DNA from: Syntrophales bacterium
GTDB taxonomy: Bacteria > Desulfobacterota > Syntrophia > Syntrophales > UBA2210
Direction of reading: 5' to 3'
Assembly (NCBI GenBank): GCA_028718565.1
Contig: JAQULO010000014.1
Location: forward strand, 1-35,888
DNA: 35,888 nt
Below are positions 195-35,596 of this stretch, piece by piece; positions within the stretch are counted from its first letter, which is position 1, and every line of letters begins with the position of its first letter. The position numbers were made by a program, and so were the translations under genes. The notes under the pieces were generated by a model. The model had not been told where the DNA came from and did not search any database. It saw nothing but the letters and a program-made list of their open reading frames with translations.

Positions 195-1136
195 TTATTG
201 TTTCTGCAAAATATTTCTGGCGATATGGCGAAGCTCCTGTGAGAGTTTTCCCTGTGGATGTTTTACCATTACGGGGACGAGATCTCTGGCGCTTTCCTCT
301 ATTTCCTTCAGGTAGCCAAGGTTTCCCGCGTGTTTTACCTCTATCGATAGAGCCCTCTTTGACACTTCCTGTATCCTCTTGATAATCGGTTCGGCACCGT
401 GCTCGTCTCTCACCCGGTTGATAACAAGGTGGGGAGTAAAGGTGGATACAGCCCTGCTTATAATAGGCAGGTCGTGTGGATGGGTTTTCCGAATCCTCTC
501 CAACAGTTCACTGATCGTTTTTACCTGTGAACCATTCCTGGACAGGGTGGCTTCATGGACAAGTGTTTTTAAGTCACTGTTTTTGCTGATTTTGTCTGTG
601 GAGTTGCTCCCCAGTAGCAGGTTGAGCTTCCTGAATAGAGACACCTTGATGAAGTTATACGCGTCTAGGTATGATGCCGGATCGCAGGTTGTCAATACAA
701 TCCCGCAGTCCGATGCAAGAAAGAAATCGAGCATGTCATACGAGGTGTTGCCCCCCAGATCCAGTATTATGTAATCAGCATCAATTTGCTGTATGGCCTT
801 GAGTAGCTTTAGCTTCAGGGAAAAATTTATATTTGCGGAGCCCAGTTGGGAACTGTTGCCTCCTATCAGCTGCAAGCCGTACTTGCTTTGTACCAATGCT
901 TCTTGCAGCGTTGCTACTTTTCGGTTCAAGAAGTCATTGATACTCCACCGCAGGCGGGTCTCACCCAAATAGAGGTGGAGATTGGCACCTCCAAGGTCAA
1001 GATCGACAATGACTGTCCTCCCCACGGAGGAGAGCAATAGTGCCAAGTTGGTGGCGAAAATGCTCTTGCCTATCCCCCCCTTTGCACCTCCGACTGCAAC
1101 CACTTTCTTCCGGTTGGTTCGTTTTTCTGTAGGCAT
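195..1136 (-). CDS. MinD/ParA-family P-loop ATPase (second FlhG-like protein)
   Basis: This is a SIMIBI-class ATPase of the MinD/ParA/FlhG superfamily, about 313 residues. The deviant Walker A motif GGAKGGIGKS lies near residue 17. It is followed by a switch-like VDLDLGGANLH segment and a Walker B-like strand ILDLGGN. FlhG/YlxH proteins have the same order of motifs, but this protein is clearly distinct from the canonical flhG at 31615. The ORF track starts at a TTG (1142). I prefer the ATG two codons inside (1136), preceded on the minus strand by a GGGGG Shine-Dalgarno-like run. It follows the pilZ gene on the same strand after about 190 bases. Positioning of a polar structure or control of flagellar gene expression is plausible, but the role is inferred from family and neighbourhood only. 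Confidence 0.85.
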   Translation of the reverse strand: MPTEKRTNRKKVVAVGGAKGGIGKSIFATNLALLLSSVGRTVIVDLDLGGANLHLYLGETRLRWSINDFLNRKVATLQEALVQSKYGLQLIGGNSSQLGSANINFSLKLKLLKAIQQIDADYIILDLGGNTSYDMLDFFLASDCGIVLTTCDPASYLDAYNFIKVSLFRKLNLLLGSNSTDKISKNSDLKTLVHEATLSRNGSQVKTISELLERIRKTHPHDLPIISRAVSTFTPHLVINRVRDEHGAEPIIKRIQEVSKRALSIEVKHAGNLGYLKEIEESARDLVPVMVKHPQGKLSQELRHIARNILQKQ

Positions 1137-1319
1137 TGGCAAAGCACCCCCTTGTCTCGTGCGCCGACTTTTATGCTTCGGCAGCGCTTATGCATGCTTC
1201 GTAGAAGGATGGGCAACCGGTAGAGGACCCCGCCCATGCCATTTACGCTGAACAACTGAAGATCAAAAAAATAACGCCACAGTGCCAGCCGGGCAGGCCG
1301 ATGCTGTGCGCCGGAAGAC

Positions 1320-1346
1320 GTGCTGAGAGGTTTATTCTCTCAGCAC
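1320..1346 (-). terminator. Hairpin over the pilZ stop codon
   Basis: A perfect 10-bp inverted repeat, GTGCTGAGAG paired with CTCTCAGCAC around a 7-base loop, contains the stop codon of the PilZ gene in its loop. There is no downstream T tract on the minus strand, so it is at best an attenuator or an mRNA-stabilising stem rather than a classical intrinsic terminator. Confidence 0.35.
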
Positions 1347-2207
1347 ATCACGTTGTCGTTTAAAGACGTATTTTATAATCGCTTCTCTGTCGGTTTCCGG
1401 GATATCTACGAATCTGGCAGCGATATTGTACCTTCCTTCTGTTTCCGATTGCGCTGAGAACGTTACCTTCCCCAACACGTATACGCATACCTGGGAGGCT
1501 AGGGGTAAAAAAATTCTGAGAGCGATGGTGTCATTGAGGAGAAACTCCTGATCAGCGATGAAGCGAATACCGGACCCGCTGATATTGACCTTGTCTTCCA
1601 CCGTTTTATATTTTTTGACCTCCTGTTTTTTCAGTATATCCAGTACGCGGTTTACTTGGAGACTTGTCTGGTAGAGGAGTTCGTAGAGCAGCTGTAGGTT
1701 TTCATCTTCGATTTCCGGGACCTTAATGAATTCTCCAAAGATATCCCTAAAAATTTTCCGGGTATTTTCATGATCTATGTGAGGGATCTTGGCATAATCA
1801 ATTGTCAGCGTATCCTCTACCCTCGTATTAAACCTTTTATCTCCCTGCAGGGCCCTTATTTCTATTTCTGGAAAGTTCTCTGAGGTTGTTATGCTGTACG
1901 GCAGATTGCTTCCCAGCACATAGATGTGCCTGCCGAAGGGGAGTGTCATTTTTTTGTCGGTATCAAGGGTAATCACGATACGGGAATCAGAACAACTCTT
2001 CACACAGCCACTTGTTCTGATTGTCCTGTTATCGCAGGAAAACTTTACGTCCAGAGTATCTCCTCTCTGCATCCCATGATGTGTGTCTCTATCCATACTT
2101 AGCGACCGGACTCCCTTTTTGATGCTGTCAAATATGCAGTTATTATGCCAGATATCGTTCCCCTTGCAGGTGCATGATACCTCTGGAGGGGCGACTCTTC
2201 GTGGCAT
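1332..2207 (-). CDS. YcgR-like PilZ-domain c-di-GMP receptor with helical insertion
   Basis: The protein has 291 residues. Residues about 46-120 look like a YcgR-type N-terminal beta domain (MQRGDTLDVKF...). A PilZ domain follows, carrying both c-di-GMP-binding motifs: RFNTR (residues 125-129, RxxxR) and NISGSG (208-213, (D/N)xSxxG). In a canonical PilZ domain these motifs are a few dozen residues apart. Here about 65 mostly helical residues (LQLLYELLYQTSLQVNRVLD region) are inserted between them, as in oligomerising PilZ variants. The likely role is to sense c-di-GMP and modulate the flagellum. The start is uncertain: ATG 2207 gives a Cys-rich leader (CTCKGN..WHNNC), whereas ATG 2096 or 2072 would begin near the YcgR-N domain, and none has a strong Shine-Dalgarno. 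It is divergent from the regulator at 2488. Confidence 0.85.
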   Translation of the reverse strand: MPRRVAPPEVSCTCKGNDIWHNNCIFDSIKKGVRSLSMDRDTHHGMQRGDTLDVKFSCDNRTIRTSGCVKSCSDSRIVITLDTDKKMTLPFGRHIYVLGSNLPYSITTSENFPEIEIRALQGDKRFNTRVEDTLTIDYAKIPHIDHENTRKIFRDIFGEFIKVPEIEDENLQLLYELLYQTSLQVNRVLDILKKQEVKKYKTVEDKVNISGSGIRFIADQEFLLNDTIALRIFLPLASQVCVYVLGKVTFSAQSETEGRYNIAARFVDIPETDREAIIKYVFKRQRDVLRE

Positions 2208-2487: not shown

Positions 2488-3873
2488 ATGACAAAGGGAA
2501 AGATATTAATCGCCGAAGATAACGATCTCAGCAGAGATAATCTGTCTGAGTTTTTGTCCATGGAAGGGTATGAGGTCAAGGCCGTCAACGATGGGCAGGA
2601 GGCCATGGATGTCTTCACCGGCGACCGGTATGATATAGTGATCACTGATTTGAAGATGCCGCGCGCTTCCGGCTTGGATATGCTTAAGTTTGTGAAGGAT
2701 ATTGATTCCAGAAACGTTGTTATTGTGATTACAGGGCATAGTACGGTGAAGAGCGCCGTCGAGGCGATGAAGCTGGGTGCTTTTGATTATATCGTGAAGC
2801 CTTTGAGGGAAGACCTCGTCAAGATTGTTGTTGAGAGGGCCCTATCGAATGAAAGGCTGAGAGAAGAAAATACGGTACTGCACGATCACCTGAAGGAAAA
2901 ATATGATTTTGGCAGGATGATAGGCTACAGTGACAGCATCGAAAAGGTCTTCGAGATGATTAAGAAAGTTGCCGCCTCCGACAGTACCGTTGTTATCTAC
3001 GGTGAAAGTGGAACAGGCAAGGAACTGGTGGCGAGAGCAATGCATTTCAACAGTGACCGGAGGGCCTTTCCCCTCGTTACCGTCAATTGCGGGGCAATAC
3101 CGGAAGAGTTGCTTGAAAGTGAGCTTTTTGGCCACGAGAAGGGTGCTTTTACGGGAGCCATACGCGGGAGAAAGGGACGGTTTGAACTGGCTCAGGGGGG
3201 TACCATTTTTCTGGATGAGATAGGAGACATGAGCCCTTCTCTCCAGGTGAAGGTCCTGCGAGTGATACAGGAAAAACAGTTTGAACGCGTAGGGGGCGTA
3301 AACACCATAGATGCGGATGTGAGAATTATTACCGCCACACACCAAGATCTTGAAAAGGCTGTTGCGGAAAAGAGATTCAGAGAAGATCTTTTCTATCGCA
3401 TCAACGTAATACCGATTACCCTCCCCCCCCTGAGGGAGAGGGCGGTGGATATACCGGTCCTGGCCAATCATTTCATAACCATGTTCAATAGATCGAAGAA
3501 AAAAAGCGTACAGGGAATAGCCCCGGAAGCCATGGATTGCCTGATGCGATATCGGTGGCCGGGAAACATCAGGGAACTACAGAACCTAATGGAAAGGCTT
3601 GTCGTTGTGAAGGCGAGCGAATTCATACAGGTAGAGGACCTGCCCGAGAAGGTGCGCTTGGGCAAAGGGACGGCCAACAACACCACGGATGAGATTGCGA
3701 TGTCGGCTGAAGGGGTATGTCTGAATGATATGCTCGCCAGATTTGAAAAGGATCTGCTCCAAAAAGCCCTGAAAAAATCCGGTGGAGTGAAGAGCAACGC
3801 AGCAAGATTGCTTGCCCTGAACAGGACAACCTTTGTTGAGAAATTAAAGAGATATCATATAATAACCGACTAA
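2488..3873 (+). CDS. Sigma-54-dependent response regulator (NtrC family, FgrM/FleQ-like role)
   Basis: This is a 461-residue three-domain activator. The N-terminal receiver (1-120) has the acidic pair E10-D11, phospho-acceptor D54 in ITDLKMP and K104. The AAA+ domain has Walker A GESGTGKE (172-179), a canonical GAFTGA sigma-54 loop (219-224) and FLDEIGDM as Walker B. A C-terminal Fis-type HTH ends in NRTTFVEKLKRYHI, which resembles the FleQ/FlrA C-terminus. It is the first plus-strand gene of the flagellar block, so a master-regulator role like Geobacter FgrM is plausible, but this is inferred from position and architecture. It has no adjacent kinase of its own, since FleS lies 3 kb downstream. 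A run of eight C (3423-3430) sits within the AAA+ coding sequence. The ATG at 2488 begins directly with the receiver. Confidence 0.93.
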   Translation: MTKGKILIAEDNDLSRDNLSEFLSMEGYEVKAVNDGQEAMDVFTGDRYDIVITDLKMPRASGLDMLKFVKDIDSRNVVIVITGHSTVKSAVEAMKLGAFDYIVKPLREDLVKIVVERALSNERLREENTVLHDHLKEKYDFGRMIGYSDSIEKVFEMIKKVAASDSTVVIYGESGTGKELVARAMHFNSDRRAFPLVTVNCGAIPEELLESELFGHEKGAFTGAIRGRKGRFELAQGGTIFLDEIGDMSPSLQVKVLRVIQEKQFERVGGVNTIDADVRIITATHQDLEKAVAEKRFREDLFYRINVIPITLPPLRERAVDIPVLANHFITMFNRSKKKSVQGIAPEAMDCLMRYRWPGNIRELQNLMERLVVVKASEFIQVEDLPEKVRLGKGTANNTTDEIAMSAEGVCLNDMLARFEKDLLQKALKKSGGVKSNAARLLALNRTTFVEKLKRYHIITD

Positions 3874-6884: not shown

Positions 6885-8180
6885 GTGTCAGTGAACGAAA
6901 CGAATACAGATAAGACAGACGAGACCGGTGCCCGCGTGTTTGGGACTGTCTTGGAAGATTTTACCCATTCCACGGCCAGACTGGAGGCAGCATTTGCCAC
7001 TCTGGGCGATAAGTTTGAGAAGATAAACAGAGAGCTGGAACGTAAGAACGAGGATCTGAAAAAGGCCCTGATCGAAAAGGAAGAGGCGCAAAGCTATCTT
7101 CGGAGTATCCTTGAAAATCTCACAACGGGTGTTGCTGTCGGAGATGCGGATGAAAATGTGACGATGATGAATGGAAGCGCAGAATCACTTACAGGGGTTT
7201 CACTGGAGGATGCGAGGGGAAAGCATATCGGACTCCTCTTTGAGAATTGCCGTCTGCGTGATTCGAATGACCGGGTAGACATCGGGCACCTTGCAAACAA
7301 TATGGGTGACAGGTTCAAACTGGGTGATGTGACGTTGGAAATTTTCGGATCTACGGTGAACAAAAAAAGCCGTGAGAAGATAGGAATAATCGTTGTCATC
7401 CGTGATGTTACAAGGCTTGATACCCTGGAGGAAATGGCTAAAAGAGAGGAAAAACTTGCCTCGATGGGAGAAATGGCGGCAAACATTGCACATGAGATAA
7501 GAAATCCCTTGGGAAGCATAGAGCTCTTTGCCTCTCTGCTGGCAAGGGATTCTGCGGACAAGAAAAGCAGAGACAGGGCGTCCCTCATCATACGTTCCGT
7601 AAAGGACATGGATATCAAGATATCGAATCTTCTTCTCTTTACAAAACGGCAAAGACCCGTGATCAAGAGGATCAATGTTCACGGCGTGTTGCAGGAGATA
7701 CTGACTTTTTCGAAACAGATAATTGATCAAGAGGAGATCATCCTGGTGGTCGACTATGATGACGCGGATCCGGTTATGGAAGCGGACGCGGAAATGCTCA
7801 AGCACTTGTTTTTGAATCTGATTCTGAATGCCATGCAGGCGATGCCTGACGGAGGGGAGCTGTCCATCCAGACGAGGATCTTCGCCGGTGACGGCATGGG
7901 AACACCTGCCGGTTCTCCCCATGTGGAGGTTACATTCGGGGACACCGGCGTGGGTATCCCCCATGAATATGTCAGGAAGATATTCGACCCATTTTTTACA
8001 ACAAAGAAACGGGGATCAGGGCTGGGACTTTCGATTGTCCACAATATTGTTGATGTCCACGGTGGTTCGATACAAGTGGGGGAGAACAAAAAAGGGGGGA
8101 GCCTCTTCACGGTTATGCTGCCCCTGGCTGAGGGTGCATGTCGAACGGTACCGTCGGAGAGAGGTTGCGGGGAGTCATGA
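6885..8180 (+). CDS. fleS: FleS/FlrB-like sensor histidine kinase
   Basis: This is a cytoplasmic histidine kinase of 431 residues with no membrane segment. Residues 30-70 are a coiled coil and about 72-180 form a PAS domain. The HisKA domain has MAANIAHEIRNPLGS with phospho-accepting H203. The HATPase_c domain has an N box NLILNAMQAM (N315), a G1 box GDTGVGIP and a G2 box GSGLGLSIV. Lack of a membrane anchor and pairing with a sigma-54 response regulator are typical of FleS/FlrB/AtoS-like flagellar kinases. It starts at GTG 6885 behind GGAGCAGG, and its stop overlaps the start of the regulator (ATGA), so the two are translationally coupled. Its product should phosphorylate D54 of the next protein. 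The signal for its PAS domain is unknown. Confidence 0.9.
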   Translation: MSVNETNTDKTDETGARVFGTVLEDFTHSTARLEAAFATLGDKFEKINRELERKNEDLKKALIEKEEAQSYLRSILENLTTGVAVGDADENVTMMNGSAESLTGVSLEDARGKHIGLLFENCRLRDSNDRVDIGHLANNMGDRFKLGDVTLEIFGSTVNKKSREKIGIIVVIRDVTRLDTLEEMAKREEKLASMGEMAANIAHEIRNPLGSIELFASLLARDSADKKSRDRASLIIRSVKDMDIKISNLLLFTKRQRPVIKRINVHGVLQEILTFSKQIIDQEEIILVVDYDDADPVMEADAEMLKHLFLNLILNAMQAMPDGGELSIQTRIFAGDGMGTPAGSPHVEVTFGDTGVGIPHEYVRKIFDPFFTTKKRGSGLGLSIVHNIVDVHGGSIQVGENKKGGSLFTVMLPLAEGACRTVPSERGCGES

Positions 8181-9604
8181 AAGAAAAATCAATCTTGATA
8201 GTTGACGACGAACTATCCATGAGAATGGCGCTTTCCGAATCGCTCATGAGTTGCGGATATGACGTCGAGACTGCAAGTAATGGTGAAGAGGCCTTGAGAA
8301 AGTTTGAGCAGGATACCTTTCGTGTCGTTATAACGGACATGAGAATGCCGAAGGTGGGAGGGATGGACGTGCTCCGGGGAATAAAAGAAAAGTCCCCCGA
8401 CACGGCGGTGATCGTCATAACCGCTTATGGTACGGTCAACACGGCGGTTGAGGCGATGAAAAAAGGGGCTTCGGATTTCATTATGAAGCCCTTCTCTCTG
8501 GACCATTTGGAGATGGTGGTAAAAGGTGTTGTTGCTCGGGATACCGGCCGTGAGGGCACAGGGATGCGGAGCAAAGAAGGATGTGGTGCGTCCTGTAAAA
8601 AGGAGATTGTTACAGAGGATAAAAGAATGAGGGCACTGCTGAAGGTGATGGGAACGATAGCGAAGAGCAAGTCCAGTGTTCTGATACAGGGAGAAAGCGG
8701 TACGGGAAAGGAGTTGCTGGCGCGCTACATACACAGGCATAGCGATAGGGCGACGATGCCGTTCATAGCGGTCAATTGTGCGGCTATTCCCGGCAACCTT
8801 CTTGAGAGCGAGATGTTTGGATATGAGAAGGGAGCGTTTAGCGGTGCGTCTCAGAAGAAACCGGGCAAATTTGAACTGGCCGATGGGGGAACTCTCCTAT
8901 TGGACGAGATAAGTGAAATGGACTTCCACCTTCAGGCGAAGCTTTTGAGAATCATTCAGGAGTCCGAGGTTGATAGATTGGGGGGGAAGAGCCCCGTGTC
9001 GGTGGATGTCAGGATCATTGCCACGACGAATACGAATCTGAAAGACCGTGTTGCTGAGAAAAAATTTCGTGACGATCTCTACTACAGGCTGAATGTCATC
9101 CCCGTCACGGTTCCTTCCCTCAGGGAGAGGAGAGGGGACATCACCCTCCTTGCCAAGGTCTTCCTCGAAAAATACTGTAGGCTCAACGGTGTAGACAAAG
9201 CCACCTTGTCGGACGAGGTTATCAACATATTGGAGCAGCACATATGGCCCGGTAACGTACGGGAACTGGAAAACATTATTGAGAGATCGGTCTTGTTGTC
9301 GGGAGGCTGTAGCATCGGTCCGGAGCATCTCTATCTGGAAGGTGAACATGGCGATGCCGGGAAGGAAAATGCAAAGCAGGCCGCATTGTGCCTGCCGATC
9401 TTGACCTCCCGAGAGGAGATCGCTTTGAAGGATATGACGCTAAGGGAAGTGGAAGAAAAACTCATATATGAAACGCTGGAGCGGGTAGGAGGAAACAGAA
9501 CGGAGGCATCAAAGATCCTGGGTGTCAGTGTGCGAACAATCCGCAATAAACTCAATGAATATAAAAGCGCTGGGAAGCAGGGACAAGAAAGCGTGGTGGT
9601 ATAG
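8177..9604 (+). CDS. fleR: FleR/FlrC-like sigma-54 response regulator
   Basis: The ATG at 8177 (after GGGGAG) gives 475 residues; the ORF track's earlier start at 8138 lies inside fleS. The receiver has D10-D11, phospho-site D54 (ITDMRMP) and K104. The AAA+ domain has GESGTGKE and a sigma-54-contact loop that reads GAFSGA rather than GAFTGA. The C-terminal Fis-type HTH ends VGGNRTEASKILGVSVRTIR, as in FleR/FlrC/FlgR. It forms a two-component pair with fleS and most likely activates the RpoN-type promoters seen before flgB, fliK and motA. Its stop codon lies within the flgB promoter. GAFSGA is a conservative change that should still allow sigma-54 contact, but it differs from the other activator in the window. 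Confidence 0.92.
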   Translation: MKEKSILIVDDELSMRMALSESLMSCGYDVETASNGEEALRKFEQDTFRVVITDMRMPKVGGMDVLRGIKEKSPDTAVIVITAYGTVNTAVEAMKKGASDFIMKPFSLDHLEMVVKGVVARDTGREGTGMRSKEGCGASCKKEIVTEDKRMRALLKVMGTIAKSKSSVLIQGESGTGKELLARYIHRHSDRATMPFIAVNCAAIPGNLLESEMFGYEKGAFSGASQKKPGKFELADGGTLLLDEISEMDFHLQAKLLRIIQESEVDRLGGKSPVSVDVRIIATTNTNLKDRVAEKKFRDDLYYRLNVIPVTVPSLRERRGDITLLAKVFLEKYCRLNGVDKATLSDEVINILEQHIWPGNVRELENIIERSVLLSGGCSIGPEHLYLEGEHGDAGKENAKQAALCLPILTSREEIALKDMTLREVEEKLIYETLERVGGNRTEASKILGVSVRTIRNKLNEYKSAGKQGQESVVV

Positions 9605-31614: not shown

Positions 31615-32496
31615 GTGGAGCAAGCTGTGGTGCCAAGAGAAATCAAGAAGGCAGATAAACGACCGGTGAAGAACGGCGGGAAGCGGAACCGTGCAGTCAG
31701 GGTTATTTCCATTACCAGCGGGAAGGGGGGAGTTGGTAAGACAAACATAGCGGCAAATATGTCGTATATACTGTCAAAAATGGGGAAAAAGGTGTTGCTG
31801 GTCGATGCGGATGCGGGCCTGGCCAATGTGGATGTGGTTCTGGGCATTACATCGGAGTACAACCTGCACCACGTACTCAACGGAGAGAAGCGGTTGCCTG
31901 ATGTTATCGTTGAGGGCCCGGGGGGATTCAAGATACTGCCGGCGGCTTCCGGTATTCAGTCAATGGCCGAACTCTCCAAGGGGCAGAAACTGACACTGCT
32001 GGAAGAGCTGAATGATCTCGATGAAGATTTGGATTTCGTGCTTATTGATACAGCTGCGGGGATAGCTGGAAATGTTATGTATTTTAATATGGCTGCCAAA
32101 GAGATTATCGTGGTTGTCACCCCCGATCCTACGTCTCTGACCGATGCCTACGCCTTGATCAAGGTGATGTATCAGAATTATGCCGTAAAACGGTTTATGA
32201 TACTTGCCAATATGGTTGAAGGCTCTCAGGAAGCAGAAAAAATTTATATAAGATTAAGCAACGCGGCAGACCATTTTCTGAATATTTCTGTCGATTATCT
32301 GGGACATATATGCAGCGATCGTAAAGTCCGGGCGGCCGTCAGAAAGCAGAGCCTGCTGGTGGAAATGTACCCTGATTCCAAGGCAAGCGAAGGCCTTTTT
32401 GAGGTTACGCAGGGACTGTATCAGAGACATCCGGAAGACGCCGCATCCGGAACCATACGATTCTTTGGCGGGGCTACTGTTGACAACAACGATTAA
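31615..32496 (+). CDS. flhG: Flagellar number regulator FlhG (FleN/YlxH)
   Basis: The protein has 293 residues and is a MinD-family ATPase. The deviant Walker A is ITSGKGGVGKTNIAANMS, switch I-like VDADAGLANVDVVLG, and Walker B VLIDTAAGIAGNVMYF. FlhG stimulates FlhF GTPase activity and limits flagellar number; in FleN-type systems it also inhibits the sigma-54 activator. It starts at GTG 31615 after GAGGTTGTAAG. It follows flhF and precedes fliA, the usual order in Deltaproteobacteria. A second, diverged member of the family is at 195-1136. Confidence 0.95.
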   Translation: MEQAVVPREIKKADKRPVKNGGKRNRAVRVISITSGKGGVGKTNIAANMSYILSKMGKKVLLVDADAGLANVDVVLGITSEYNLHHVLNGEKRLPDVIVEGPGGFKILPAASGIQSMAELSKGQKLTLLEELNDLDEDLDFVLIDTAAGIAGNVMYFNMAAKEIIVVVTPDPTSLTDAYALIKVMYQNYAVKRFMILANMVEGSQEAEKIYIRLSNAADHFLNISVDYLGHICSDRKVRAAVRKQSLLVEMYPDSKASEGLFEVTQGLYQRHPEDAASGTIRFFGGATVDNND

Positions 32497-33208
32497 CAAG
32501 ATCGAACGAGATAAACGCATCATGCAGTACGCGCCTCTCGTCAAGAATATTGTCGAGAGAATCGCAATGAGATTGCCTGTGGATGTGAGCAGGGACGATC
32601 TGATTAATGTTGGTATCATAGGGCTGATAGACGCCCTCGAAAAGTTTAATGAGGAGAGGAATGTACGATTTGAAACCTATGCCAAATTCAGGATTCGGGG
32701 AGCGATACTCGATGAATTGAGATCAAGAGACAAGATGCCCCGGTCGGCCAGGAACAAGAGCGCACGCCTGGAAGAGGCATTTAATGTGCTGCGTGAGAGA
32801 CTAGGCGTACCTCCGACGGGTGAGGATGTGGCTGATTACCTCGGAATATCCCTGGACGAATATTACCGGCTTCTGGATGATGCAAAAGCCGTATCAGTGT
32901 TGAGTAGTGACGACCTTCCGGAGGATTACTGTGAAGGACATGCGGAGAGTGATCTGCTGGAAAAAATAGACAAGTACAATCCGTTCCTTCTCCTTGAGGA
33001 TCTTGAACTCAAGCGGTTGTTGACAGACACCATACAGTCACTCCCCAGAAGCGAGAGGCTAGTCCTATCTCTCTACTATTACGAGGAGTTGACACTAAAG
33101 GAAATAGGGGCGATCATGGATTTGACTGAGTCAAGGGTATGCCAGATACACTCACAGTCGATCATTAGATTGAGGGGCAGGTTGCAGGAATTGAAGCCCT
33201 CAACGTAG
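32480..33208 (+). CDS. fliA: RNA polymerase sigma-28 factor FliA
   Basis: The preferred start is TTG 32480 (six bases after GGCGGGG, overlapping the flhG end), giving about 243 residues; ATG 32522 would cut into the conserved region IMQYAPLVKNIVERIAMRLP. Region 2 is LIDALEKFNEERNVRFETYA with FRIRGAILDELRSRD, the FliA/WhiG signature. Regions 3 and 4 follow (VADYLGISLDEYYRLLDDAK; LTLKEIGAIMDLTESRVCQI as the -35-binding HTH). It directs transcription of late flagellar genes. The anti-sigma factor FlgM is not in the window. Confidence 0.95.
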   Translation: MTTTINKIERDKRIMQYAPLVKNIVERIAMRLPVDVSRDDLINVGIIGLIDALEKFNEERNVRFETYAKFRIRGAILDELRSRDKMPRSARNKSARLEEAFNVLRERLGVPPTGEDVADYLGISLDEYYRLLDDAKAVSVLSSDDLPEDYCEGHAESDLLEKIDKYNPFLLLEDLELKRLLTDTIQSLPRSERLVLSLYYYEELTLKEIGAIMDLTESRVCQIHSQSIIRLRGRLQELKPST

Positions 33209-33241
33209 CGGGGTGTGGGGCATGATAGGAGGTGCAATCTC

Positions 33242-33742
33242 TTGAGGAGTCTCAACAAAAGTGTGCGTGCCGTGGGCTGGAGTTCTGTCGCGATGATGTG
33301 TATTGCGGCGGGATGCCTGTTCCCGGCATTGACGGTGCAATATTCATGGTCTGCCCCCCCTGAATCCCGGGGGGTAGAAGATAAAAGATCGGCCTCCGAG
33401 CTCGGATATTCCGTTATAACAGAAGAGCGGAAGGCACGCGATACAGCAGAGGGGGATGTCACCGGATGCAGGTTTTTGTATTTCAAAGGTTTTGTCGTGT
33501 GCCCGGAGAAGTGCAACGACAAGATACTTGTGTGTGACATGGTCTTGGAATTATGTCATGATACGAGCCCTACTAAAGACAGTGCCGACCTGCGGAAGGC
33601 CATATACGACATATGCCTTAAAATATCGAATATTCCCGAGGCCCGCCGGTTCTTGAAGATGGAGATAAAAACATGCCTGAATGAGCTTATGGGGGGGGAT
33701 ATCATACAACAGGTATACTTTACTAAATTTGTTCTATTATGA
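33242..33742 (+). CDS. Secreted Cys-rich FliL-like protein
   Basis: The start is TTG 33242, with a strong AGGAGGTG seven bases upstream; the ORF track uses an upstream GTG. The protein has about 166 residues. A basic N-terminus and hydrophobic stretch (VGWSSVAMMCIAAGCLFPAL) form a signal sequence with a possible lipobox (IAAGC). The rest aligns by eye with the periplasmic FliL domain at 22825: FKGFVVCPEKCNDKILV against the corresponding beta-strand region, and an identical-style end, IIQQVYFTKFVLL versus QMVYFTEFIVQ. It has seven cysteines after the signal region, unusual for FliL. It may be a second FliL acting at the stator or basal body. The family assignment is my inference. Confidence 0.75.
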   Translation: MRSLNKSVRAVGWSSVAMMCIAAGCLFPALTVQYSWSAPPESRGVEDKRSASELGYSVITEERKARDTAEGDVTGCRFLYFKGFVVCPEKCNDKILVCDMVLELCHDTSPTKDSADLRKAIYDICLKISNIPEARRFLKMEIKTCLNELMGGDIIQQVYFTKFVLL

Positions 33743-33792: not shown

Positions 33793-33893
33793 ATGAAAAC
33801 GCAGTAACACACGTGTTTTTTGAAAATCACATTGTTACGAGGATCTTTACAGCAATCGTATTGCACTATACCTGAGACAGGAGGGACAATGTC

Positions 33894-34748
33894 GTGACTA
33901 AGAATGATCAACGTAGCCGCATATCTGCAGAGATAGAGAAGGATTTCGAATCAACCGTGTTACAGGGATTTATGCCCGGGCTTCTTCATACTTTTGCGAA
34001 TCCCTTGAACGGCATTCTGGGCCGGTCCCATCTCTTGCGGGAGAGAGTTAAAGAGACGATTGAAGCGGTAAACGGTCATAACGGTATGAGCGACACGATC
34101 CTTGAGCGGTGTAATAAAATAGCCCGTGACGCCGATCTCATTGCCAGGGAATCAGAAACATTTTTCGATCTGTTCAATAAGCTTTCCGGGAAATTTTACC
34201 GATTGAATGACACTACTGTTCAGAAGGTTAATCTTTCCGATTTTATAGAAAAGGAAGTTGCCTTCCTGGAGTTTTACCTGGATTTCAGGCATAACGTCGA
34301 TAAAAAATTGCTCTTGAATTGGGACGTCCCCGATGTGCGGGGTACATACTCCTGCTACTCATTGTCTTTATTTGCACTTATCAGGCGATCAATTGATGCC
34401 ATGAGGGGGAACGATGCGAGAGAACTGGTTATAGTAACTGATTGCGATGAGTCATATGTCAGTATAGATATCAAGGATACGGGAACGCCTCTGCCGAAGA
34501 CCCGGACAAAGAGACTATTCGAAGCCCTGGAGAAGGAAGACCCTGCCCCCTGCGGCCTGGGACAAGACAAGGGCCTCTTCAATGCCCTCTTTCTTCTGAA
34601 GGGGTGCGGAGGGGTGTTTAAGGTTGGGCGTGAAGGGAGCTTTAATGTTGTAACAGTTTGTATACCCTATAAAAACAACCGGATTGCATCGACAAAGCGC
34701 CAGGGCGCAAAGCAAAGACATTTCCCTGAGGTCATGACGCTTCTCTAG
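33894..34748 (+). CDS. Degenerate histidine kinase-like protein
   Basis: The protein has 284 residues from GTG 33894 (AGGAGGG upstream); an ATG at 33889 in another frame stops at once. The dimerisation/phosphotransfer helix has LLHTFANPLNGILGRSHLL, with H32 at the position of the phospho-accepting histidine. The C-terminal part resembles a HATPase_c domain but is eroded: the N box reads ALIRRSIDAM without the essential Asn, the G1 box is IDIKDTGTPL, and the G2-like segment GLGQDKGLFNALFLLKG lacks the usual GLGL. No receiver, PAS or membrane segment is seen. It may be a phosphotransfer or regulatory protein like ChpT rather than a kinase. It lies downstream of fliA among flagellar genes. The role is unknown. 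Confidence 0.75.
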   Translation: MTKNDQRSRISAEIEKDFESTVLQGFMPGLLHTFANPLNGILGRSHLLRERVKETIEAVNGHNGMSDTILERCNKIARDADLIARESETFFDLFNKLSGKFYRLNDTTVQKVNLSDFIEKEVAFLEFYLDFRHNVDKKLLLNWDVPDVRGTYSCYSLSLFALIRRSIDAMRGNDARELVIVTDCDESYVSIDIKDTGTPLPKTRTKRLFEALEKEDPAPCGLGQDKGLFNALFLLKGCGGVFKVGREGSFNVVTVCIPYKNNRIASTKRQGAKQRHFPEVMTLL

Positions 34749-34856: not shown

Positions 34857-35153
34857 ATGGTAAGGTCGATCGATGTTCAACAGGTTTTGTTGCAAACGAA
34901 TTCAATTGAGCGTGTTCAACAGACCCAGCAGCAACATCCCGATGTCCAGCAACGGTACTTCGAAGATCAGTTGAGCAAAGAAAGGAAAAACCTGAAAAAG
35001 AAGGTGTCGGGCTCCGACAGCCTCCAGGAATTAAGAATCATGGAAGAAGAGGGGCGTGACAGTGGGGATCGACGCAAGCAGGGAAGGAAGAAAAAAGAAG
35101 AACATGACGCCGGTGCCGGTGAAATAGGAGAGACAGTGGACATAAGGGTATGA
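34857..35153 (+). CDS. Small charged protein of flagellar clusters (unknown function)
   Basis: The protein has 98 residues. The N-terminal half (VQQVLLQTNSIERVQQTQQQ, HPDVQQRYFEDQLSKERK) is Gln/Glu-rich and helical; the C-terminal half is very charged (RRKQGRKKKEEH). Small proteins of this type occur after fliA in deltaproteobacterial flagellar clusters, but I do not recognise a named family. It has no signal peptide and no cysteines. It is followed by a DUF2802-like gene with a 4-base overlap, so the two are likely one operon, possibly under the sigma-28-like promoter. Confidence 0.65.
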   Translation: MVRSIDVQQVLLQTNSIERVQQTQQQHPDVQQRYFEDQLSKERKNLKKKVSGSDSLQELRIMEEEGRDSGDRRKQGRKKKEEHDAGAGEIGETVDIRV

Positions 35154-35596
35154 GTACGGAGTTGATGCTGGGCATACAGATTTTTGCAGACGTGGTGCTG
35201 TGTGCCATTATTGCATTTTTGCTCTGGGTATTGAACACGGAAAGCAGGAAGAGGAGATGCGGGGTTGATGCAGATTCTCTTACCGAACTCAGAGGATTGA
35301 TCGAGTCATCAAAGGCGTCGGCTGATTATCTGGTTCGGGCCCTGGATGATGGGAAGAAGTCTCTTGAGGAAGTCGCCCATTCTCTTGACGAAAGAGAAAC
35401 GCGCCTGAGGACGCTTATGGAAGGGCTGGACCGTAGTTCCGGCGATATGCAGAAGGACCCGCGGTACGGGCAGGCTATGGAGATGGCAAGGCAGGGTGTG
35501 CCGGGAACTGAAATAGCCAATGCGCTGGACCTTACGGAAGGCGAGGTAGACCTCATAGTGAGTCTTGATCTCAGAAAGAATAAAGATGCCGGTTAA
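35150..35596 (+). CDS. DUF2802-like membrane protein
   Basis: The protein has 148 residues. One N-terminal membrane segment (LGIQIFADVVLCAIIAFLLWVL) is followed by a coiled coil (about 45-105) and a small C-terminal helix-turn-helix-like domain (YGQAMEMARQGVPGTEIANA and LTEGEVDLIVSL), the layout of DUF2802 proteins found beside flagellar and chemotaxis genes. The function is unknown. It overlaps the previous gene and the next one (TAATG), indicating tight coupling. Confidence 0.75.
   Translation: MSTELMLGIQIFADVVLCAIIAFLLWVLNTESRKRRCGVDADSLTELRGLIESSKASADYLVRALDDGKKSLEEVAHSLDERETRLRTLMEGLDRSSGDMQKDPRYGQAMEMARQGVPGTEIANALDLTEGEVDLIVSLDLRKNKDAG

Follow-up and report, generated by a model that had tools for sequence, protein, structure and literature searches.

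The window, a stretch of 35,888 nucleotides from a Syntrophales bacterium (GenBank assembly GCA_028718565.1, contig JAQULO010000014.1), encodes within a flagellar locus a kinase-dead protein, here called HKL, that we tentatively read as a HisKA-derived phosphotransfer protein, dimeric and cytoplasmic, which works without ATP and links motility regulators, a reading to which we give a probability of about 0.45. The more general claim of a preliminary description of this DNA, that HKL is a kinase-derived protein predicted to be unable to use ATP and has kept its phospho-histidine, is well supported by the family alignment.

To our knowledge, few kinase-derived phosphotransferases are known and these were discovered one by one. 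Since the HKL family was found together with ATP-intact relatives, the order of losses (the acid following the phospho-acceptor histidine, H+1, first and the ATP-binding boxes next) is traceable, and the change from a kinase to a carrier or phosphatase becomes testable in this family. HKL is an uncharacterised conserved gene of the flhF-flhG-fliA-FipA region and implies an extra layer of flagellar control in this deltaproteobacterial group.

The HKL protein and its conservation across the order

The HKL gene (Table 1) is preceded by a putative ribosome-binding site, GGAGG, at about positions 33880-33884. Comparison with Pfam gave sub-threshold matches to HisKA (E 0.018) and HATPase_c (E 0.025) and detected no sensor or receiver domain, in agreement with the preliminary description, and no NCBIfam model scored above its own cut-off for the window protein. 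The AlphaFold2 model, built with 54 orthologues as input, is confident (pLDDT 88.1, pTM 0.82) and has a DHp-CA architecture, with a long helical hairpin (residues 3-60 and 66-105) and, after it, an alpha/beta domain of the Bergerat type; its top PDB fold matches are histidine kinase cores, including those of HK853, DivL, ZraS and RetS, and the closest family models and PDB sequence relatives are HisKA kinases of the NtrB/AtoS/ZraS/NifL type.

Table 1. Features of the window that bear on HKL, with positions, strand and basis of assignment.
Feature	Position	Strand	Basis
NtrC-type response regulator, receiver intact, without adjacent kinase, candidate partner	2488..3873	+	
FleS-like PAS-HisKA-HATPase kinase, all boxes intact	6885..8180	+	
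FleR-like NtrC-type regulator, paired with 6885	8138..9604	+	
fliA (sigma-28)	32399..33208	+	translation, conserved synteny
FliL-like membrane protein between fliA and HKL	33215..33742	+	PF03748 E 2e-4; syntenic across order
HKL, kinase-dead DHp-CA protein, 284 aa, GTG start	33894..34748	+	ORF translation, Pfam, AlphaFold2 model, family alignment
H-box segment MPGLLHTFANPLNGILGRSHL, residues 27-47	33972..34034	+	sequence; conserved over 72 members
Linker motif DFRHNVDK, family-specific, consensus D-F-K-H-x-V-K-K	34281..34304	+	alignment
Degenerate N box FALIRRSIDAM, R165 at Asn position	34371..34403	+	alignment of order and phylum relatives
G1 remnant DTG, F-box/lid and lost G2 region	34476..34608	+	alignment, entropy
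Small conserved ORF after HKL	34857..35153	+	synteny
DUF2802 protein, FipA-type candidate	35150..35596	+	PF10975 E 3e-11

Regarding the kinase motifs, the phospho-acceptor H32 (codon 33987-33989) lies within LLHTFANPLNG and is followed by T33 at H+1 and N36 at H+4, the segment ALIRRSIDAM has substitutions at both canonical Asn positions of the N box, and DTG is present at G1 while GxGLG is absent at G2. Among the features of an active HisKA kinase, HKL therefore has the H-box histidine and lacks the acidic H+1 residue, the N-box Asn and GxGLG.

Of the 155 genomes of the order, 77 have a homologue of HKL, and residues were counted over 72 aligned full-length members. The histidine corresponding to H32 is present in all 72, so that the earlier proposal, which loss of this residue in orthologues would have undermined, stands on this point; P28, G29, P37, L38, G43, R44 and E121 are likewise each found in 72/72, Asn at H+4 in 70/72, Lys or Arg at linker residue 132 in 72/72 and H133 in 71/72. 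Neither the N-box Asn, whose position is mostly occupied by Tyr, Phe, His or Arg, nor GxGLG was found in any member (0/72 each), and the G1 Asp (D195) is kept in 36/72. The intact H box, the N box without Asn and the abnormal G2 region had been pointed out in a single gene, and as these lesions are common to the 72 members the description holds as a property of the family. A further lesion, which had been overlooked, is the loss of the H+1 acid (Asn in 69 members; Thr, in the window protein, Ser and Asp in one each), which argues against an autokinase.

Pairwise dN/dS values of both HKL domains were mostly 0.10-0.45, the sole exception being the pair L072/L080 (about 0.7), two very similar sequences separated by few changes. 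Purifying selection on the C-terminal domain indicates that this domain still has a function.

Ancestry and comparison with known systems

A profile search of the phylum revealed relatives of HKL outside the order (E 1e-47 to 1e-16), and motifs were compared in 40 of these phylum relatives (L119-L158), of which 36 have the N-box Asn and 35 the G1 Asp; their H box is mostly HN, and they have the linker motif FKHxVxK in common with the order members. They form a wider HisKA family characterised by HNxNxPL, in which Asn replaces the acid at H+1, a FFKHxVxK linker and mostly intact N and G1 boxes, and these kinases may function without the usual general base. Because such ATP-intact relatives are already without the H+1 acid, the kinase-dead clade is not alone in having lost it. 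In a quick tree a fully supported branch separates all 72 order members from the phylum relatives, which, together with the N-box Asn kept in the latter, is consistent with a single ancestral loss of the N box; judged from these sequences, the order probably lost its ATP site in one event, at its base. Conservation of the H-box helix is stronger in the order (entropy 1.00 bit) than in the phylum relatives (2.02), whereas the lid is more variable (3.19 versus 2.17 bits).

Four proteins of other orders encoded after fliA (L120, L123, L124 and L125) have kept the N box and G1 and have no GxGLG G2 box; since they cluster with the phylum relatives in the tree, they may represent a parallel case. 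In two HKL-like proteins adjoining response regulators (L134 and L138) Asn replaces the phospho-acceptor His, and L134 has PilZ and PAS domains.

Regarding known systems, ChpT is a precedent for phosphotransfer by a kinase-derived protein (PMC3433190). Similarly to HKL, this alphaproteobacterial protein (PF10090) combines a DHp and a CA-like domain, keeps the phospho-His, has no usable ATP site, as is predicted for HKL, and is standalone and sensorless, but it belongs to a different phylum and HKL is found at a flagellar locus. Spo0B of Bacillus resembles HKL by analogy, as a dimeric DHp-type phosphotransferase with a vestigial C-terminal domain, although it works in the sporulation relay. The likeness to ChpT and Spo0B noted in the preliminary description is confined to architecture and presumed function, the model of HKL predicting a DHp hairpin and a Bergerat-like domain that has lost ATP-site motifs and may be unable to bind ATP, and fails for sequence and fold ranking: PF10090 and SPOB gave no match at E<=0.01 in 54 HKL members, and neither ChpT nor Spo0B appeared in a PDB profile search, with E<=10 as the limit, or in the top 50 fold matches of the model.

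PhyT, a kinase with a degenerate ATPase, shuttles phosphate between two regulators and has a negative effect in vivo (PMC5898713). PhyT/PhyP share with HKL the kinase-type protein with degenerate ATPase; however, PhyT is membrane-anchored and of the HisKA_2 type with HRxxN, whereas HKL is sensorless and HisKA/NtrB-like, its motif being H-N/T-x-x-N-P and its Pfam and NCBIfam matches being of the HisKA type. NtrB, AtoS and ZraS differ from HKL as active kinases with every box intact. The PAS plus GHKL architecture of NifL was not found, HKL having no PAS domain and only a partial NifL match, confined to the CA part and far below cut-off. Membership in ChpT, Spo0B, PhyT or NifL was rejected for want of sequence support, and HKL apparently constitutes a separate, undescribed kinase-derived family. 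No description of HKL or of a degenerate flagellar histidine kinase was found in the open-access literature searched.

Genomic context and candidate partners

The gene order flhA-flhF-flhG-fliA-[FliL-like]-HKL-[small ORF]-DUF2802-FliK-like-FlhB-like-flgF/flgG-like is usual across the order and was found for most members. HKL had been placed beside fliA; it is near fliA and not directly adjacent, as the FliL-like gene intervenes. In syntenic homologues of this gene PF03748 was matched with E values of 2e-7 and 2e-8, while Pfam gave no convincing match for the small ORF downstream of HKL. In gammaproteobacteria DUF2802 characterises FipA, the polar FlhF partner (PMC11620751), and the DUF2802 protein of this FlhF-FlhG locus is a FipA candidate outside that group.

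Among the 155 genomes, 53 have both HKL and FlhA, 24 HKL only, 9 FlhA only and 69 neither (p 9e-14). A strictly flagellar role was rejected, as 24 of the 77 carriers are without FlhA, some of them incomplete genomes and others apparently truly non-flagellar. For several non-flagellar members no receiver gene was found within the neighbourhood examined, as at L034, L035 and L224-L227, where HKL is kept in FlhA-less genomes of one family; in L034 it adjoins a GidA/TrmFO-like gene. At L053 (genome G030) fliG-fliM-fliN-flhG adjoin HKL and a REC-GAF-HD-GYP gene while FlhA was undetected in the genome, and these genes could be a remnant of the flagellar switch or switch proteins put to another use.

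Most flagellar HKL loci, including that of the window, have no receiver gene adjoining HKL. The regulator that most often adjoins HKL in the order is REC-GAF-HD-GYP, found at eight loci (L039, L045, where it is frameshifted, L053, L072, L080, L220, L222 and L237), FlhA-negative genomes included. ATP-intact relatives adjoin REC-HD-GYP at three loci of the phylum (L145, L149 and L156), which suggests that a regulator of this kind was the ancestral partner. At five further loci (L044, L050, L051, L074 and L078) a CheY-like REC-TPR gene and a sensorless intact kinase lie directly upstream of HKL, after fliA, and at L086 HKL overlaps cheY, following cheD-HDOD-cheX.

Co-occurrence was compared within flagellated and non-flagellated genomes; since the genomes are related and partly incomplete, the p values are indicative only. 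HKL is associated with REC-GAF-HD-GYP among FlhA-negative genomes (p 0.0025) and with the regulator at 2488 among FlhA-positive ones (p 0.006). REC-GAF-HD-GYP was rejected as a universal partner, being missing in the window genome (best match E 3e-48, HD part only) and in four other flagellated carriers, with p=0.27 among flagellated genomes. FleR (8138) was rejected as a specific partner, with p=1 among flagellated genomes and with the residues following the H box of HKL unlike those of FleS when compared by eye. Of the two regulators that the preliminary description had proposed for comparison, that at 2488 is the one associated with HKL by co-occurrence; its choice as the partner is possible, yet the neighbour recurring elsewhere is REC-GAF-HD-GYP, which is absent here. 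The window genome encodes 50 receivers and 32 HATPase_c domains, too many for a single donor to be picked out. Regulator 2488 is a fair candidate in this organism, and most likely either it or a receiver from another part of the genome is the partner.

The orthologue of regulator 2488 has REC-GAF-HD-GYP as its divergently transcribed neighbour in 18 genomes. A PilZ-domain gene (1332-2207, minus strand) occupies in the window the site where many relatives carry REC-GAF-HD-GYP, and this gene and one for a ParA/MinD-like ATPase (195-1142, minus strand) are divergent from regulator 2488.

Proposed phosphotransfer and its alternatives

HisKA kinases autophosphorylate with the H+1 acid as general base, which acts with the N-box Asn, and use the H+4 residue to dephosphorylate the regulator (PMC8292422). 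The loss of both kinase determinants with retention of the His and of H+4 is thus a strong argument against an autokinase and leaves phosphotransfer, phosphatase activity or both. Transfer is favoured by the invariance of the His together with the recurrent receiver neighbours, although conservation of the His is by itself no proof of transfer, as the phosphatase-only HisKA phytochrome DrBphP also retains it (PMC8292422).

If phosphotransfer is the activity, HKL would not autophosphorylate; H32 would be phosphorylated by the receiver Asp of a first response regulator (or by the receiver of a hybrid kinase), and the phosphoryl group would be passed to, or drawn back from, a second receiver, the regulators linked in this way being the REC-GAF-HD-GYP c-di-GMP phosphodiesterase where present, CheY-like or REC-TPR proteins and NtrC-type flagellar activators. 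HKL probably relays the phosphate of motility regulators, or strips it from them, rather than originating a signal; we infer its dimerisation, the phosphorylation of H32, the identity of the partners and a main activity of transfer, not of hydrolysis only. A more far-reaching version, doubtful at present, would make HKL a phosphorelay hub throughout the order, with an origin separate from those of ChpT and Spo0B, which exchanges phosphate among the c-di-GMP phosphodiesterase regulator, the CheY-like/REC-TPR protein and the sigma-54 flagellar activator, with a receiver inherited from an ancestral pair of kinase and REC-GAF-HD-GYP. Such a hub would let the assembly of flagella and their placement at the pole draw on the same phosphoryl pool as c-di-GMP turnover.

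Alternatively, HKL could be a dedicated response-regulator phosphatase, in which the H+4 Asn would position water to hydrolyse the phospho-Asp of a receiver and so keep a flagellar or CheY-like regulator off. This role, possible though not the one we prefer, was not weighed in the preliminary description, and it fits the pattern of a lost H+1 and a kept H+4 about as well as phosphotransfer does. The family has, like the kinase-dead DrBphP (PMC8292422), a non-acidic H+1 and no N-box Asn with a polar residue kept at H+4, and the location of HKL downstream of fliA, or in L086 of cheX-cheY, is reminiscent of CheZ and CheX. The likeness to DrBphP, which carries a photosensory module, is tempered by the ATP requirement of its phosphatase, as the HKL family is without a recognisable ATP site, and by its Glu at H+4, replacement of which by Asn abolished activity; moreover, a His kept in every member would be less expected were hydrolysis the sole task.

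It is rather unlikely that HKL is a non-catalytic adaptor that forms heterodimers with a true kinase or sequesters a regulator in the manner of RetS, DivL or NifL. The fold matches to DivL and RetS, NifL, AtoS and NtrB as the nearest NCBIfam models, the sensorless true kinase directly upstream in five genomes and the purifying selection on the CA domain are consistent with an adaptor, but H32 and the phosphotransfer surface around it are invariant, and in DivL a Tyr replaces the phospho-acceptor His that HKL keeps. Persisting kinase activity, through an unusual nucleotide site or by phosphorylation in trans from the ATPase domain of another kinase, is improbable: half of the members retain the G1 Asp and a neighbouring kinase could conceivably act in trans in the same five genomes, but the N-box Asn and GxGLG are lost throughout, an acid occurs at H+1 in one member of 72 and the lid is hypervariable. 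A decaying pseudogene or a sequencing artefact, suggested by the missing motifs only, is ruled out by an open reading frame in nearly all genomes, by selection and conserved synteny, and by the histidine present in 72/72.
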